Positions 26,690 to 31,814 of a DNA stretch of 64,000 nucleotides are shown here, one piece after another. The stretch covers positions 1,302,001-1,366,000 of the forward strand of contig CP036352.1 of the NCBI GenBank assembly GCA_007753915.1, given 5' to 3'. A model generated the notes under the pieces. The model was not told the origin of the DNA and made no database searches. It was given only the letters and a program-made list of their open reading frames with translations. How positions within the stretch are numbered: the first letter of the stretch is position 1; each line of letters begins with the position of its first letter. The position numbers and the translations under genes were made by a program. This DNA comes from Phycisphaerae bacterium RAS2. GTDB lineage: Bacteria > Planctomycetota > Phycisphaerae > UBA1845 > UTPLA1.

Positions 26690-27331
26690 ATGAAACCCAA
26701 CCATTTTCCAGCCCCCGCCGTGATGCGGTTGAGTCTGTACCTGCGTGAGCTGGACAAGCTCTGGCACAACGACCGGCGCACGGTCTCGTCGCGCGAACTG
26801 GGAGACGCCCTGCGCATTTCGGCTCCGCAGATTCGTAAGGACCTCGCGTACTTCGGAACGTTTGGGCGGCCCGGCATCGGCTACGACATCGCCGAGTTGA
26901 TGACCAAGCTTCGCAAGATTCTGGGGACCGACCGGGCGTGGAACGTGCTGCTGGTCGGCGCGGGCAACCTCGGCATGGCGCTGTCGGCCTATCGGGGGTT
27001 TTCGCGCAAGGGGTTTCGATTGGTCGCGGTGTTCGATTCCGACGATCGCAAGGTGGGGCGCACGGTGGCGGGGCTGGCGGAACTGGTGATTCAGCCGTTG
27101 AGCGATCTTGCGGCAACGGTGCGCGATCGCGACATTCGTCTGGCGATCGTGGCGGTGCCGGCCGAAGCGGCGCAGGGCGTGGCGGATCAGTTGGTGGCGG
27201 CGGGGGTTCGGGGGTTGCTTAATTTCGCGCCGATCAGCCTGAACGTGGATTCGAAGGTGGCGGTCGCCGCGGTCGATCTCGCCGTGGAGCTGGAGCAGCT
27301 TTCATTTCAGTTGGGGGCGGAGGAAGGGTAG
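26690..27331 (+). CDS. rex: Redox-sensing transcriptional repressor Rex
   Basis: A 213-aa homodimeric DNA-binding repressor that senses the NADH/NAD+ ratio and controls fermentation and respiration genes. The N-terminal winged helix (about 10-80) contains RTVSSRELGDALRISAPQIRKDL and the AYFGTFGRPGIGYD wing. The Rossmann NADH-binding domain has VGAGNLGMALSAY (about 89-101) and VAVFDSDDRKVG. GAAAG upstream may serve as ribosome-binding site. The C-terminal 98 bases overlap the methyltransferase gene on the opposite strand. In this genome Rex may regulate NAD-linked genes, but no Rex operator was found in the window. Confidence 0.95.
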   Translation: MKPNHFPAPAVMRLSLYLRELDKLWHNDRRTVSSRELGDALRISAPQIRKDLAYFGTFGRPGIGYDIAELMTKLRKILGTDRAWNVLLVGAGNLGMALSAYRGFSRKGFRLVAVFDSDDRKVGRTVAGLAELVIQPLSDLAATVRDRDIRLAIVAVPAEAAQGVADQLVAAGVRGLLNFAPISLNVDSKVAVAAVDLAVELEQLSFQLGAEEG

Positions 27332-28211
27332 CGGCGCCGATGGCTCGGAGCCGTTGCCCTGTGATAGCGATGGCGCGGGCCGCAAGGTCGCAACCGATGC
27401 AGTGTCGGCCCAGTCGCCGGGCGGCGACCAGCGTCGTGCCGCTGCCGCAGAAGAAATCCGCCACGCGCTCGCCGGGGTTGCTCGATGCCTGAATGATGCG
27501 TTCAAGCAGGGCCAGGGGCTTCTGCGTGGGCCATGCGACGCGTTCGCGCGCCACGGTCGACAGGAACGGTATATCCCATACATCCGTCAACATCGGTCCG
27601 TCGCGGTGGAAGTACAGTCGTCCGCGCCGCGTGTTCTTGTACGGCCGGCCGTTCTCGTCGTGATTCAACCCGTCGGTTCGATAGGCGCCGCTTCGCTGTG
27701 CGTGGAATCGGTGTCGGCCCAGGCGGCGGGCGTACACGAGAATCGTGTCGTGCTTGCGGCCGAACCAGCGCGTGGCGACGCCCCCCGTGCGGTAGTGCCA
27801 GATGACTTCATTGAGGAAGTTCTTCGCGCCGAACAGGTCGTCCAGCATGACGCGAAGGTGGTGAGCGGCGCGCCAGTCAGCGTGCAGATAAAGCGTGCCG
27901 TGTTCGGGCAGCAGTCGACGGCATTGTTCCACCCGCGGCAGCATGAATGCGAGATAGCCGCGCAGTCCGTCGGGCCAGCGGTCGTCGTAAGAACGGTCGC
28001 GCGAGTCCGATGTGAGCGATTCGCGGGGTTGCTTTCGCGCGGCCTTGCGACCGGCGGGCGCACGGCGCGGTTGATTGGTGAAAAAGGGCGGGTCGAGGTA
28101 AATGAGGTCGCAGCAGCCGTCGGGCAATTGCTTCATGAAGGCGAGGTTGTCGCCGGTGTGAAGCGTGTCGGGGCCGAGAGCGTCAGAGCGGCGACGGGAT
28201 CGAGCAGGCAT
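27234..28211 (-). CDS. DNA methyltransferase (N6-adenine or N4-cytosine), beta-class, probably orphan
   Basis: A 325-aa DNA methylase. Motif IV is DPPF at residues 40-43 (DLIYLDPPFFTN), and it precedes the AdoMet motif I FFCGSGTTLVAARRLG, which is near the C-terminus. That order is the beta class seen in CcrM-like enzymes. HTGDNLAFMKQLPD and TLYLHADWRAAHHLR are typical framework motifs. No restriction endonuclease gene is adjacent, so it may be a regulatory orphan. ATG 28211 overlaps the TGA of the upstream PAS-Fis gene (TGATG), and it reads best as a coupled second gene. Its last 98 bases run antisense into rex. Target sequence unknown. Confidence 0.85.
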   Translation of the reverse strand: MPARSRRRSDALGPDTLHTGDNLAFMKQLPDGCCDLIYLDPPFFTNQPRRAPAGRKAARKQPRESLTSDSRDRSYDDRWPDGLRGYLAFMLPRVEQCRRLLPEHGTLYLHADWRAAHHLRVMLDDLFGAKNFLNEVIWHYRTGGVATRWFGRKHDTILVYARRLGRHRFHAQRSGAYRTDGLNHDENGRPYKNTRRGRLYFHRDGPMLTDVWDIPFLSTVARERVAWPTQKPLALLERIIQASSNPGERVADFFCGSGTTLVAARRLGRHCIGCDLAARAIAITGQRLRAIGAATLPPPPTEMKAAPAPRRDRPRRPPPSNPRSG

Positions 28212-28951
28212 CAATCTAAGTTTGATTGATCGATGCCCAGGGCGTCAAGACGGCGGTAGAGCCGGCTGCGCGAGATGCCCATGATCTTCGCGGCGTGTGT
28301 CCGCTGGCCGCCCGCGATCTCCAGGGCGCGGAGGATTTCGCGGCGCTCAACTTCCTCGATGACGCGATCGAGAGGCATGGATACATTTGAATTCTGCGAG
28401 CGATGATTCAAATCGTGATTGCCGCCGATCGACGCGGGTTGCCGGCTGGGCGGACTCAAATCCGGGGCGCTCTGCCTGGGTTGGTCGCTGATCTGCCGAC
28501 GCAGATCGGACATGTGCGCCTTGAGTTCATCGAAGTGCGCCTTCGAATCGGACACGTCGCGCACCAGCCCGAGGACGAACTCGATCCGCCCGGCATGGTC
28601 TCGTATGGGAGAATAATGAGTCTCGACCCACAAGGTGCTGCCGTCGCGCCGACTGATCTGCATTCGTTGCAGCGCCTGTTGCGCGCCCCCGTCGAAGACG
28701 GATCGCGCCGGACAGAGAAAGCCACCGAGATAGCGGCCGTACTCGTCCTTGCACTTTGTGGCTTCGTTGCAGGCGCACGCCTGCGTCATCAGTTCGTTCG
28801 CAGTGAACCCCGTCAGTCGTTCGAGCGCGGCGTTGACGAGGACGTAGCGTTTCTGGCGGTCGATGACGAACACTCCGTCGGCGGCGTTGGACAGGATTCG
28901 GTCGAGCGAAACAGGAGCCGTTTGCGTTGGTGCGGTCGGGAGCGGATTCAT
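28211..28951 (-). CDS. PAS-domain regulator with C-terminal Fis-type helix-turn-helix
   Basis: A 246-aa protein. A PAS domain (about 14-130) holds SNAADGVFVIDRQKRYVLVNAALERLTG and a CACNEATKCKDEYG insert with cysteines that could bind a metal or cluster. A short linker (about 140-200) is followed by a Fis-like helix-turn-helix (VERREILRALEIAGGQRTHAAKIMGISRSRLYRRL). The architecture is an NtrC-type regulator without its AAA+ ATPase domain. It probably binds DNA in response to a PAS ligand. It is the first gene of the pair with the DNA methyltransferase. A GGAGAG ribosome-binding site precedes ATG 28951. The signal and targets are unknown. Confidence 0.85.
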   Translation of the reverse strand: MNPLPTAPTQTAPVSLDRILSNAADGVFVIDRQKRYVLVNAALERLTGFTANELMTQACACNEATKCKDEYGRYLGGFLCPARSVFDGGAQQALQRMQISRRDGSTLWVETHYSPIRDHAGRIEFVLGLVRDVSDSKAHFDELKAHMSDLRRQISDQPRQSAPDLSPPSRQPASIGGNHDLNHRSQNSNVSMPLDRVIEEVERREILRALEIAGGQRTHAAKIMGISRSRLYRRLDALGIDQSNLD

Positions 28952-29119
28952 GGGCGACGCTCTCCTTCGGGCTTTGCAGTAGAATGCAGGACCGGAAAGC
29001 AGTGCGGCCGACGATTGAGAACGTTGGTCGTCACGTAACTCTACCGCGCTCGCGAGTGTCAGGCTAACCGAAAAATCTCCTAATGCGGCGCGGCAGCAGG
29101 CATGCGAGGTGCAGGATTT

Positions 29120-30019
29120 ATGTCAGCCCATGTCGGAATTAATCGAGACGCGCTCCGCCGGTTGCTCGAGATCGCGCGCGATGAAGATCTCGGCGAACAC
29201 GGCGATGTGACGAGTCGCTTGCTGCCGGAGACAACCCTCGTCGCTCAAGGGCGATGGGTGCTGCGCTCGCGGCAGTCGGGTCGCGTTTGTGGTGTTGAGT
29301 TGCTGCCTGACATGCTGGAAGTTCTCGCCCCGGCGGTCGAGCTTGAATGGGTGACGGCAAAGCCGCCGACGCAATTCGTCGAGACGGGAGAAGACCTCGC
29401 GCGGTTTCGCGGGAATGTGGGGCAGATGTTTGCGGCCGAGCGCGTGATGCTCAATTTCCTGCAACACCTGTCGGGCGTGGCGACGCTGACGGCGCGGTTC
29501 GTGAGCGAAGTCGCGGGCACCGGCGCGAAGATCTATGACACGCGCAAGACAACGCCGGGCCTGCGCGATCTGGAGAAGTATGCCGTGCGCTGCGGCGGTG
29601 GGCACAATCACCGGATCGGCCTGTACGATGCGGTGTTGATAAAAGACAATCATCTGGCCGACATCCCGACGGCGCGGCTGGCGCACTGCGTGTTTGACAT
29701 GCTCAATCGGCTGCCGCTGCTGCCGTCGACGCCGGCGTTCGTGGAGGTCGAGTGCGATTCGCTGGAGCAGGCGGCGGAGTTGTTCAAGGTCGTTGGGATC
29801 GATGTGATCCTGCTGGACAACTTCGAACCGCCGCGCCTGCGCGAAGCCGTGGCGCTGCGCGATCAGGCAGGCTTGCGCGGCAAGGTGGAACTGGAGGCCA
29901 GCGGCGGCGCGACGCTGCAATCCGTGCGGGCGACTGCCGAGACGGGGGTCGAGCGCATCAGCGTCGGGGCAATCACCCATTCCGCGCCGATCCTCGACCT
30001 GGGGCTGGATGCGGAATAG
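29120..30019 (+). CDS. nadC: Nicotinate-nucleotide pyrophosphorylase (quinolinate phosphoribosyltransferase)
   Basis: The 299-aa enzyme converts quinolinate and PRPP to nicotinate mononucleotide in de novo NAD synthesis. Motifs are EDLGEHGDVTSRLL, the substrate lysine/arginine cluster TRKTTPGLRDLEKYAVRCGGG, LIKDNHL, and SVGAITHSAP near the C-terminus. The start is ATG 29120 (MSAHVGINRD) with GAGG 11 bases upstream; an ATG 18 bases earlier is possible. birA follows after 76 bases. The kynurenine genes on the minus strand at 39-41 kb could feed quinolinate to it. nadA/nadB are not in the window. Confidence 0.95.
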   Translation: MSAHVGINRDALRRLLEIARDEDLGEHGDVTSRLLPETTLVAQGRWVLRSRQSGRVCGVELLPDMLEVLAPAVELEWVTAKPPTQFVETGEDLARFRGNVGQMFAAERVMLNFLQHLSGVATLTARFVSEVAGTGAKIYDTRKTTPGLRDLEKYAVRCGGGHNHRIGLYDAVLIKDNHLADIPTARLAHCVFDMLNRLPLLPSTPAFVEVECDSLEQAAELFKVVGIDVILLDNFEPPRLREAVALRDQAGLRGKVELEASGGATLQSVRATAETGVERISVGAITHSAPILDLGLDAE

Positions 30020-30095
30020 CGGCGGCGTTGGGAATTCAAGATTCTGAATGTGCAACGGGGGCGAAACTCCGGACGAGACCCCGAGGAAAAGAGGA

Positions 30096-30929
30096 ATGGA
30101 GTCCGGCTCCGGCCTCGGAACCATGACCAACCACCGATTGGACGCCAAGCGAATCGCACCCAGGCTGAAAACGGCACGCATCGGCCGCCGCCTGCTCGTG
30201 CTCGATGAGGTCGACAGCACGAACGAATACGCGCTGGGTGTGCTCGCTCCGCGCGAAGAACTTGCAGCCGACGGGATGGTTGTCTTCGCGGAACATCAGA
30301 CGGCCGGTCGCGGTCGGCTCGGCCGGACGTGGCATTCGCCGCGCGGGGCGAGCCTGGCGATGACGGTGTTGTTGTGTGAATCGCAACTGCCGCCGTCACC
30401 GGTGCGGCTGGTGATGGCGGGCGGGGTGGCGGTGGCGAAGGCGGTGGCATCGACGACAGATGTCGAACCGGTGATTCGGTGGCCGAACGATGTGTACGTC
30501 GGGCCGAAGAAGCTTGCGGGAATTCTTGTCGAGGCGCGGAGCGTAGGAACGGTCTCATGGGCCATGGCAGTCGGGATAGGCCTGAACTGTCTCCAGCAGG
30601 CTGGCCATTTCCCGCCGGACTTGCGCGACCGGGCGACGTCGCTGGAATTGGAGTCGAAGCACGCGATTGATCGTGAAGCCGTCGCGGTTGCCGTAATGAA
30701 CGAACTGGATGTACTTGTGCGGCGCGATTCGAGCGTTTCGGACGCCGCGCTCGTCGACCAGTGGCGGGCGCGCAGCGCCGACCTCGGCACGCGCGTCACG
30801 TTGCGGGAGAATGGACAAACCTATTCTGGCATCATCCTCGATGTTCACCCTCAAAGCGGTCTGCTGTTGCAGCTCGACACCGGCGCCCGGCGACATTTCG
30901 ACCCGGCGACGACAAGCCGGGAGGGATGA
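30096..30929 (+). CDS. birA: Biotin--protein ligase (monofunctional, class I)
   Basis: A 277-aa enzyme that activates biotin with ATP and attaches it to the biotin carboxyl carrier protein. The biotin loop GRGRLGRTWHSPRGAS (71-86), WPNDVYVGPKKLAGILVE and a C-terminal SH3-like domain are present. It lacks the N-terminal DNA-binding helix-turn-helix of E. coli BirA, so it is not a repressor. The start is ATG 30096, preceded by GAGGAAAAGAGG, a very strong ribosome-binding site. A later ATG (30123) exists, but it lacks one. It lies 76 bases after nadC and may be co-transcribed. Confidence 0.92.
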   Translation: MESGSGLGTMTNHRLDAKRIAPRLKTARIGRRLLVLDEVDSTNEYALGVLAPREELAADGMVVFAEHQTAGRGRLGRTWHSPRGASLAMTVLLCESQLPPSPVRLVMAGGVAVAKAVASTTDVEPVIRWPNDVYVGPKKLAGILVEARSVGTVSWAMAVGIGLNCLQQAGHFPPDLRDRATSLELESKHAIDREAVAVAVMNELDVLVRRDSSVSDAALVDQWRARSADLGTRVTLRENGQTYSGIILDVHPQSGLLLQLDTGARRHFDPATTSREG

Positions 30930-31340: not shown

Positions 31341-31358
31341 GTGTTTGCGAGACAAGCC

Positions 31359-31814
31359 ATGCCGCAATCGCTCAGCGCCGTCCATGTGCACCTGGTTTTC
31401 TCAACGAAGGATCGAACGCGCGCATTTCAGAATCTTGACCTTCGCGCCCAACTGCACGCTTATCTCGGGGGTGTATCGCGCCAGCTTGCTTGTCCGCCCG
31501 TGCGAATTGGGGGAGTTGCGGATCACGTCCATGTTCTCGCTCAACTTGGTCGGACGATCGCACAGGCTGACTGGGTAAAGGAATTGAAGCGCGTGTCATC
31601 GATCTGGGTTAAGACACAAGGTGGAGATTACACGGACTTTCAATGGCAAGCGGGCTACGCGGCGTTCTCGGTCAGTCAGTCAAACCTGGATCGAGTGACT
31701 GAATACATAGCGAACCAGGAGACTCATCACCGCGAGTTGTCGTTTCAGGATGAGCTCCGCGTCATGCTACAGAAGCATCAGATCGAATTCGATGAGCGGT
31801 ATGTCTGGGATTGA
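31359..31814 (+). CDS. REP-associated tyrosine transposase (RAYT, Y1/IS200-like HUH enzyme)
   Basis: A 151-aa single-strand DNA transposase of the Y1_Tnp family. The HUH metal motif is His57-Val-His59 (ADHVHVLAQL), and the catalytic Tyr is Tyr116 (DRVTEYIANQETHH). VHVHLVFSTKDRTRAF is the typical N-terminus. RAYTs cut and rejoin REP hairpins, and some disperse them. The gene sits between two inverted REP hairpins with GTAG, which supports this assignment over an ordinary IS200. Start ATG 31359 (MPQSLSAVH). Full length and intact, so possibly active or domesticated. Confidence 0.88.
   Translation: MPQSLSAVHVHLVFSTKDRTRAFQNLDLRAQLHAYLGGVSRQLACPPVRIGGVADHVHVLAQLGRTIAQADWVKELKRVSSIWVKTQGGDYTDFQWQAGYAAFSVSQSNLDRVTEYIANQETHHRELSFQDELRVMLQKHQIEFDERYVWD

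Follow-up and report, generated by a model that had tools for sequence, protein, structure and literature searches.

Two minus-strand genes of Phycisphaerae bacterium RAS2, joined by an overlapping stop and start, encode a PAS-Fis regulator and an orphan beta-class DNA methyltransferase. By sequence comparison, the regulator appears to share common descent with PAS-AAA+-Fis activators of sigma-54, with its whole ATPase domain deleted. The interpretation leaned towards here, if only slightly, is that a dedicated, PpsR-like and sigma-54-independent PAS-Fis regulator sets the dose of the orphan methylase, so that methylation follows a signal. Both the regulator-methylase partnership and the stripped activator seem to be new. 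No paper on a PAS-Fis/methylase pair or on orphan methylases of Phycisphaerae was recognised among the open-licence papers searched, and the terms 'planctomycet' and 'PAS domain' do not occur in the available portion of a 2026 review.

The window, that is, the whole stretch of 64,000 nucleotides that was analysed (contig CP036352.1, positions 1,302,001 to 1,366,000), holds the following features at the locus, numbered from its first letter:

26690-27331, plus strand: rex, convergent neighbour, with a 98-base overlap with the 3' end of the methylase gene
27234-28214, minus strand: beta-class DNA methyltransferase, 325-326 amino acids, start at ATG 28211 or TTG 28214
28209-28214, minus strand: TTGATG stop/start overlap joining the regulator and methylase genes; the start of the methylase is not preceded by a Shine-Dalgarno-like match
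28211-28951, minus strand: PAS-Fis regulator, 246 amino acids; PAS at about residues 15-151 (Cys59/61/67/80), linker 152-188, Fis-type HTH 189-241, AAA+ absent
28952-29101, minus strand: intergenic region common to the operon and the divergent nadC, presumed operon promoter, with AGGAG just upstream of the regulator
29102-30019, plus strand: nadC, divergent from the operon and encoding quinolinate phosphoribosyltransferase; identity to the locus-side nadC is 67% in genome G007 and 61% in G014
30048-30929, plus strand: birA-like biotin/lipoate ligase, of a cluster found beside the locus in 10 of 17 genomes of family f1, four of them without the regulator

The two genes and their junction

A sequence-only reading of this DNA had described two minus-strand open reading frames (ORFs) at 27234-28951 sharing TGATG, a regulator with a PAS domain and a Fis-like HTH but no AAA+ domain, and a methylase with DPPF followed by FFCGSGTT. 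These descriptions were borne out, the full junction being TTGATG with an alternative TTG start. The regulator matches the Pfam families PAS (PF00989, 2.5e-15) and HTH_8 (4.9e-11) and gives no match to AAA+ (Sigma54_activat) at E<=0.01. The methylase matches N6_N4_Mtase (PF01555, 2.9e-41), and its motif IV (DPPF, residues 40-43) precedes motif I (FFCGSGTT, residues 253-260, both in ATG numbering). This order, DPPF before FxGSGTT, the invariant columns of the alignment and a fold match to beta-class enzymes place the protein in the beta class. It is most like M.BceJIV, MboIIA, RsrI and CcrM in a PDB sequence search, and a structure search with the predicted fold (pLDDT 80) ranks M.BceJIV top. 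M.BceJIV of Burkholderia cenocepacia (PDB 8urk), which we take to be the same enzyme as BCAM0992, is the nearest solved structure both by sequence (3.7e-22) and by fold (3.0e-18); at 28% identity, its motif is not transferable to the window methylase. The accessible text of PMC7364216 describes BCAM0992 as an orphan methylase with the motif GTWWAC that affects gene expression. CcrM of Caulobacter, to which the sequence-only reading had compared the enzyme, likewise combines the beta-class fold with orphan status, but the comparison does not extend to the CcrM family itself, since the window methylase scores 87 bits against an NCBIfam equivalog cut-off of 830, its best stretch covering profile positions 183-253 of 350.

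The expected absence of a restriction partner held among relatives as well. PADLOC hit no restriction model among the 98 nearest neighbouring ORFs (130 amino acids or more) at 57 loci (12 models with one member each, listed in full), and a Pfam scan of the neighbours, with 25 of 128 families listed, recognised no restriction gene. Judged by family, motifs, predicted fold and the lack of a recognised adjacent nuclease, the second gene is classed as an orphan beta-class DNA methyltransferase. Gene regulation by such enzymes is reported in PMC7364216 and PMC13076061, and a marine survey gives 86% of methylases as orphans and a restriction partner for only 3.19% of type II methylases (PMC9516812); with orphans so common there, orphan status alone weighs less.

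At the junction, the A of the regulator's TGA is also the A of an ATG, an in-frame TTG lies three bases earlier, and the methylase may start at either codon. Twenty regulators were compared here (22 upstream ORFs minus L082 and L083, which are not homologous regulators). Nine of them overlap the methylase start codon by four bases (NTGA), namely every AAA+-less member of f1, the family of the window (seven in all), together with G007 and G055; in the other AAA+-bearing pairs among the 20, the methylase start is ambiguous. A TTGA junction is also present in four named-record loci (L106, L115, L116 and L121, of which L115 is the record of G324), and the four-base overlap is present in all of the ten linked AAA+-less forms but G322. 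Given the frequency of the NTGA overlap in relatives, TTG may be the homologous methylase start. AGGAG at the regulator with no Shine-Dalgarno-like match at the methylase would fit translational coupling, short of proving it, and the absence is weakly informative, since such a match occurs at just 17 of the 32 regulator starts examined.

Distribution and pairing across relatives

An orthologue of the methylase is present in 42 of 61 relatives, a set that includes the window genome: 41 match at E < 1e-75, and one more, in G060, is interrupted by a contig end. Across the class, 50 of 347 genomes match at E < 1e-115, the next best match being 1e-78, and 47 of them belong to the window's order and three to family f14 of the same class. 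Members of this close group share about 50% identity or more where measured; among the best 80 of 576 matches, identity is 51-61% within the group and falls to 45% in the next one, Thermoplasmata. Full-length homologues with 40-45% identity are found in these archaea at L122, L124-L127 and L129, five of which come directly below the planctomycete matches. The close loci are from records titled Phycisphaerae, Phycisphaerales or Planctomycetota; the exception is L110, titled Alphaproteobacteria bacterium, whose methylase sequence is identical to that of G023 of the window's order and whose title looks wrong. G036 and G260 carry, besides the orthologue, a more distant methylase paralogue (L205 and L209, matching the group profile at E 5e-76 and 4e-78). 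Three long-branched sequences from outside the group, L129, L130 and L135, fall with it inside an unresolved fork of the methylase tree, which is why the set is termed a close group here, short of a proven clade.

Full-length matches in mobile elements are distant among the matches listed: the top one reaches 37.6% identity in plasmids and 41% in viral contigs, where some partial segments score higher, and phage matches range from 31 to 38%, the 38% one being split into three pieces. The neighbours are conserved. In those 10 f1 loci the birA-like gene adjoins the locus on the opposite strand, also in the regulator-less G006, G008, G014 and G016, nadC adjoins it in six f1 loci of the neighbour cluster table and in the window, and some members of family f8 have a fructose-bisphosphatase gene in this place. 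Conserved neighbours and low identity to plasmid, phage and viral sequences make the methylase look like a resident chromosomal gene, and a mobile origin was rejected on these same grounds.

C proteins act as controllers in restriction-modification systems, and the pair could be read along these lines, with the methylase as a type II remnant or a solitary protective enzyme and the regulator as a C protein analogue. The PADLOC model nearest to the methylase is indeed a type II methylase, and its more distant homologues do occur in phages, plasmids and viral contigs. Nevertheless, the empty restriction search around the 57 loci and the conserved chromosomal neighbours speak against this origin, which is considered very unlikely.

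A Fis-type regulator lies directly upstream of the methylase, on the same strand, in 25 of 58 orthologue neighbourhoods (window included), a pair being counted when the regulator ends within 346 bases of the methylase domain. The remaining 33 have no such partner, and for all of them but G036 at least 3 kb of upstream sequence is available. Four extra named-record loci add three pairs (L106, L116 and L121) and one unpaired methylase (L109). A Fis-domain search at E<=1e-9 found the regulator in 25 of the 61 genomes, one copy each; the weaker match in G015, found with the full protein, brings the total to 26 and indicates that this cut-off may miss others. The methylase accompanies the regulator in 24 of these 26 genomes and is adjacent to it in 21 (Fisher p 7e-4, relatedness not corrected for). 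The regulator is unlinked in G022 (a 179-residue open frame), G030 and G036, it occurs without a methylase orthologue in G018 and G031, and 18 genomes have the methylase without a regulator at the Fis cut-off. The regulator of G031 has its sister at L121, a locus with the methylase; as G031 still has the same fructose-bisphosphatase neighbour, it probably lost its own methylase. On the methylase tree, the 'no regulator' state needs at least six changes on starred branches.

The regulator is therefore rarely found without the methylase, and the methylase is often found without the regulator: the pairing is real, yet not obligatory. The partnerless orthologues indicate that the methylase does not need the regulator, and regulators that are unlinked or have no methylase orthologue may have other targets. 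Conservation of the pair, which the sequence-only reading had proposed as a check, stands as a linkage across genera and families; relatives lacking the pairing, which it had named as counting against its idea, are at the same time numerous, and orthologues do not extend, as far as searched, to Planctomycetota at large, being confined to one order and the three family f14 genomes.

The 33 partnerless methylases, together with five of 26 regulators unlinked or without a methylase orthologue, would also suit a merely historical adjacency, in which a regulator with some other task is co-transcribed, to no functional end, with a housekeeping methylase. This is held to be decidedly unlikely. Adjacency in 21 of the 24 genomes that have both genes, in neighbourhoods of at least two kinds (nadC-birA and fructose-bisphosphatase), and four-base overlaps in nine of ten linked AAA+-less forms argue against it.

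Descent of the regulator

Forms with and without AAA+ that lie upstream of the same methylase can be aligned in their PAS and Fis parts. An AAA+ domain lies between them in 18 relatives, as Pfam confirms for all six scanned, and is absent from 11 PAS-Fis proteins, the window's included; in G294, G324 and perhaps G055, whose start is unsure, only a Fis HTH is found just upstream of the methylase. The window protein has no AAA+ with GAFTGA, the mark of a sigma-54 activator (bEBP), and its same-locus orthologues do have the AAA+ domain. The GAFTGA motif is kept in two of the 18 AAA+-bearing relatives (G004 and G007) and lost in 16, with the loop itself deleted in G010 and G012. In a control set of 30 other activators, taken from six of these genomes, 28 carry GAFTGA (14) or a version with one change (14); this set leans to strong members, being the best-scoring 30 of 72 places. 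Sigma54_activat scores are 213-217 bits where GAFTGA is kept, 155-172 bits in two forms lacking it, and 101 and 66 bits in the two loop-deleted ones.

We infer that the direction was AAA+ loss rather than repeated gain. In the tree of the PAS and Fis parts, AAA+-less forms appear in two places and a single origin is rejected (p-AU 0.014, with G299 omitted as a long branch); one loss within f1 is not rejected (p-AU 0.141). The AAA+-less forms of f1 group with the GAFTGA forms of G004 and G007 (96/96), and the loop-deleted G010 and G012 fall outside, so that deletion of the domain need not pass through loss of the loop. A stepwise path, with the loop lost first and the domain later, was dropped, as the f1 tree gives it no support. 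Loss of sigma-54 as the cause of the AAA+ loss was also rejected, given that rpoN is present in 58 of the 61 genomes, including that of the window; it was unmatched in G048, G057 and G060, which are 72, 55 and 84% complete.

Compared with its genus mate, the window has a dN/dS near 0.17 in PAS, 0.18 in Fis, 0.86 in the linker and 0.27 in the methylase, and from this one species pair both PAS and Fis look maintained. The linker, which is poorly conserved, is where AAA+ lies in relatives. The structure model of the regulator, built from 8 sequences, is modest (pLDDT 76, pTM 0.51). The profile A2, run across the class, matched 347 of 347 genomes, swamped by AAA+. If the inferred descent is right, a single locus offers sigma-54 activator forms that are intact, changed or deleted in the contact loop, devoid of the whole domain, or reduced to the HTH, next to a constant neighbour.

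Proposed DNA binding, sensing and control of the methylase

PpsR/CrtJ, which to our knowledge has no AAA+ domain, resembles the window regulator in joining PAS to a C-terminal HTH, and NCBIfam TIGR02040 matches the window protein in the HTH region only, at 24.9 bits against a cut-off of 275.4. The part of PMC3949515 consulted presents PpsR/CrtJ of purple bacteria as a redox-responding repressor with PAS domains and a C-terminal HTH that binds DNA directly, PpsR having three PAS domains and binding TGTc-N10-gACA upstream of photosynthesis genes. In contrast, the window regulator has one PAS with a conserved Cys set, adjoins a methylase and has AAA+-bearing orthologues at the same locus. Caulobacter NtrC is likewise an activator-family protein without GAFTGA but, unlike the window regulator, keeps AAA+; the available section of PMC12421884 reports that it functions at sigma-70-dependent promoters and that expression of sigma-54-dependent genes still goes up in some of its mutants. 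An activator without GAFTGA can accordingly still influence sigma-54 genes, which counts against sigma-54 independence.

Upstream regions were compared for 28 loci (32 minus three unsure starts and one near-copy, starts being set by a nearest-ATG rule). None has a sigma-54 promoter at two or fewer mismatches, which is weak evidence of absence, as the shuffled mean is only 1.3; at three mismatches there are six, against 9.4 expected. TATAAT-like hexamers occur in 15 of the 28 (against a shuffled mean of 8.9 and a maximum of 15 over 100 shuffle sets), and TAWAAT-like ones, found in 20, are not enriched (shuffled mean 16.2, highest 23). The operon promoter therefore leans towards a sigma-70 type. 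No shared palindrome rose above shuffled controls in these regions, which leaves autoregulation without sequence backing.

The Cys-rich insert CACNEATKC noted earlier is present in the PAS domain. Among 28 orthologous PAS domains, C80 is kept in all, C61 and C67 in 25 each and C59 in 18, and an extra Cys is present in 21 at the position of Leu43 of the window. A structure search finds the predicted PAS similar to those of LOV, NifL and FixL, which bind different cofactors, so that the resemblance names no ligand; no fitting precedent for the Cys set was found among the open-licence papers searched.

In the favoured reading of a regulator that sets methylase dose, the AAA+-stripped protein would consist of a PAS sensor attached to a DNA-binding domain of the Fis type, and a PAS-gated dimer would bind DNA directly, as PpsR/CrtJ does, without using sigma-54. 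It would set the amount of methylase through the common transcript and the overlapping stop and start, and the methylation state of some chromosomal sites would follow the signal sensed by PAS. If true, a planctomycete lineage has an orphan methylase that is conserved and served by a one-component regulator of its own, and DNA marking may be tied to a signal through the sensor.

In Dam-type competition switches, a site is either bound and spared from methylation or methylated and no longer bound. Regulator and methylase could similarly act on the same DNA, binding and methylation excluding each other and co-transcription serving only to keep their ratio. The invariance of the HTH residues SRSRLYRR in 18 aligned regulators and the fact that G294, G324 and perhaps G055 retain the Fis HTH alone, directly ahead of the methylase, are in keeping with such common sites. 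The regulators of G031 and G018, which have no methylase orthologue, and the 33 of 58 methylases without a regulator are not, and this alternative is deemed unlikely. A further extension, for which the chances are regarded as low, is a sensor-gated epigenetic switch native to Phycisphaerae, in which the ATPase was shed more than once and one-component PAS-Fis or Fis-only proteins, acting with the methylase on common chromosomal sites, write an environmental signal as heritable methylation.

Overall, the sequence-only reading was right about what lies at the locus, and its interpretation, a putative sensor-linked epigenetic switch, was supported in part, namely for the orphan methylase, the AAA+-less regulator and their linkage. 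It had also placed the pair next to rex, with a possible redox role. The gene is indeed there and overlaps the methylase, but G000 and G001, of the window's genus, are the only genomes in which it was recognised as the nearest neighbour, and the redox link through rex was dropped for this reason. The methylase tail encoded in the overlap region has low confidence in the predicted structure. Farther along the window, the ORF at 31341-31814 is, by the look of its sequence, presumably a REP-associated or IS200-type transposase. The convergent overlap at 27234-27331, comprising the last 98 bases of rex on the plus strand and the methylase on the minus strand, is also seen in the genus mate (L061, 7512-7610).
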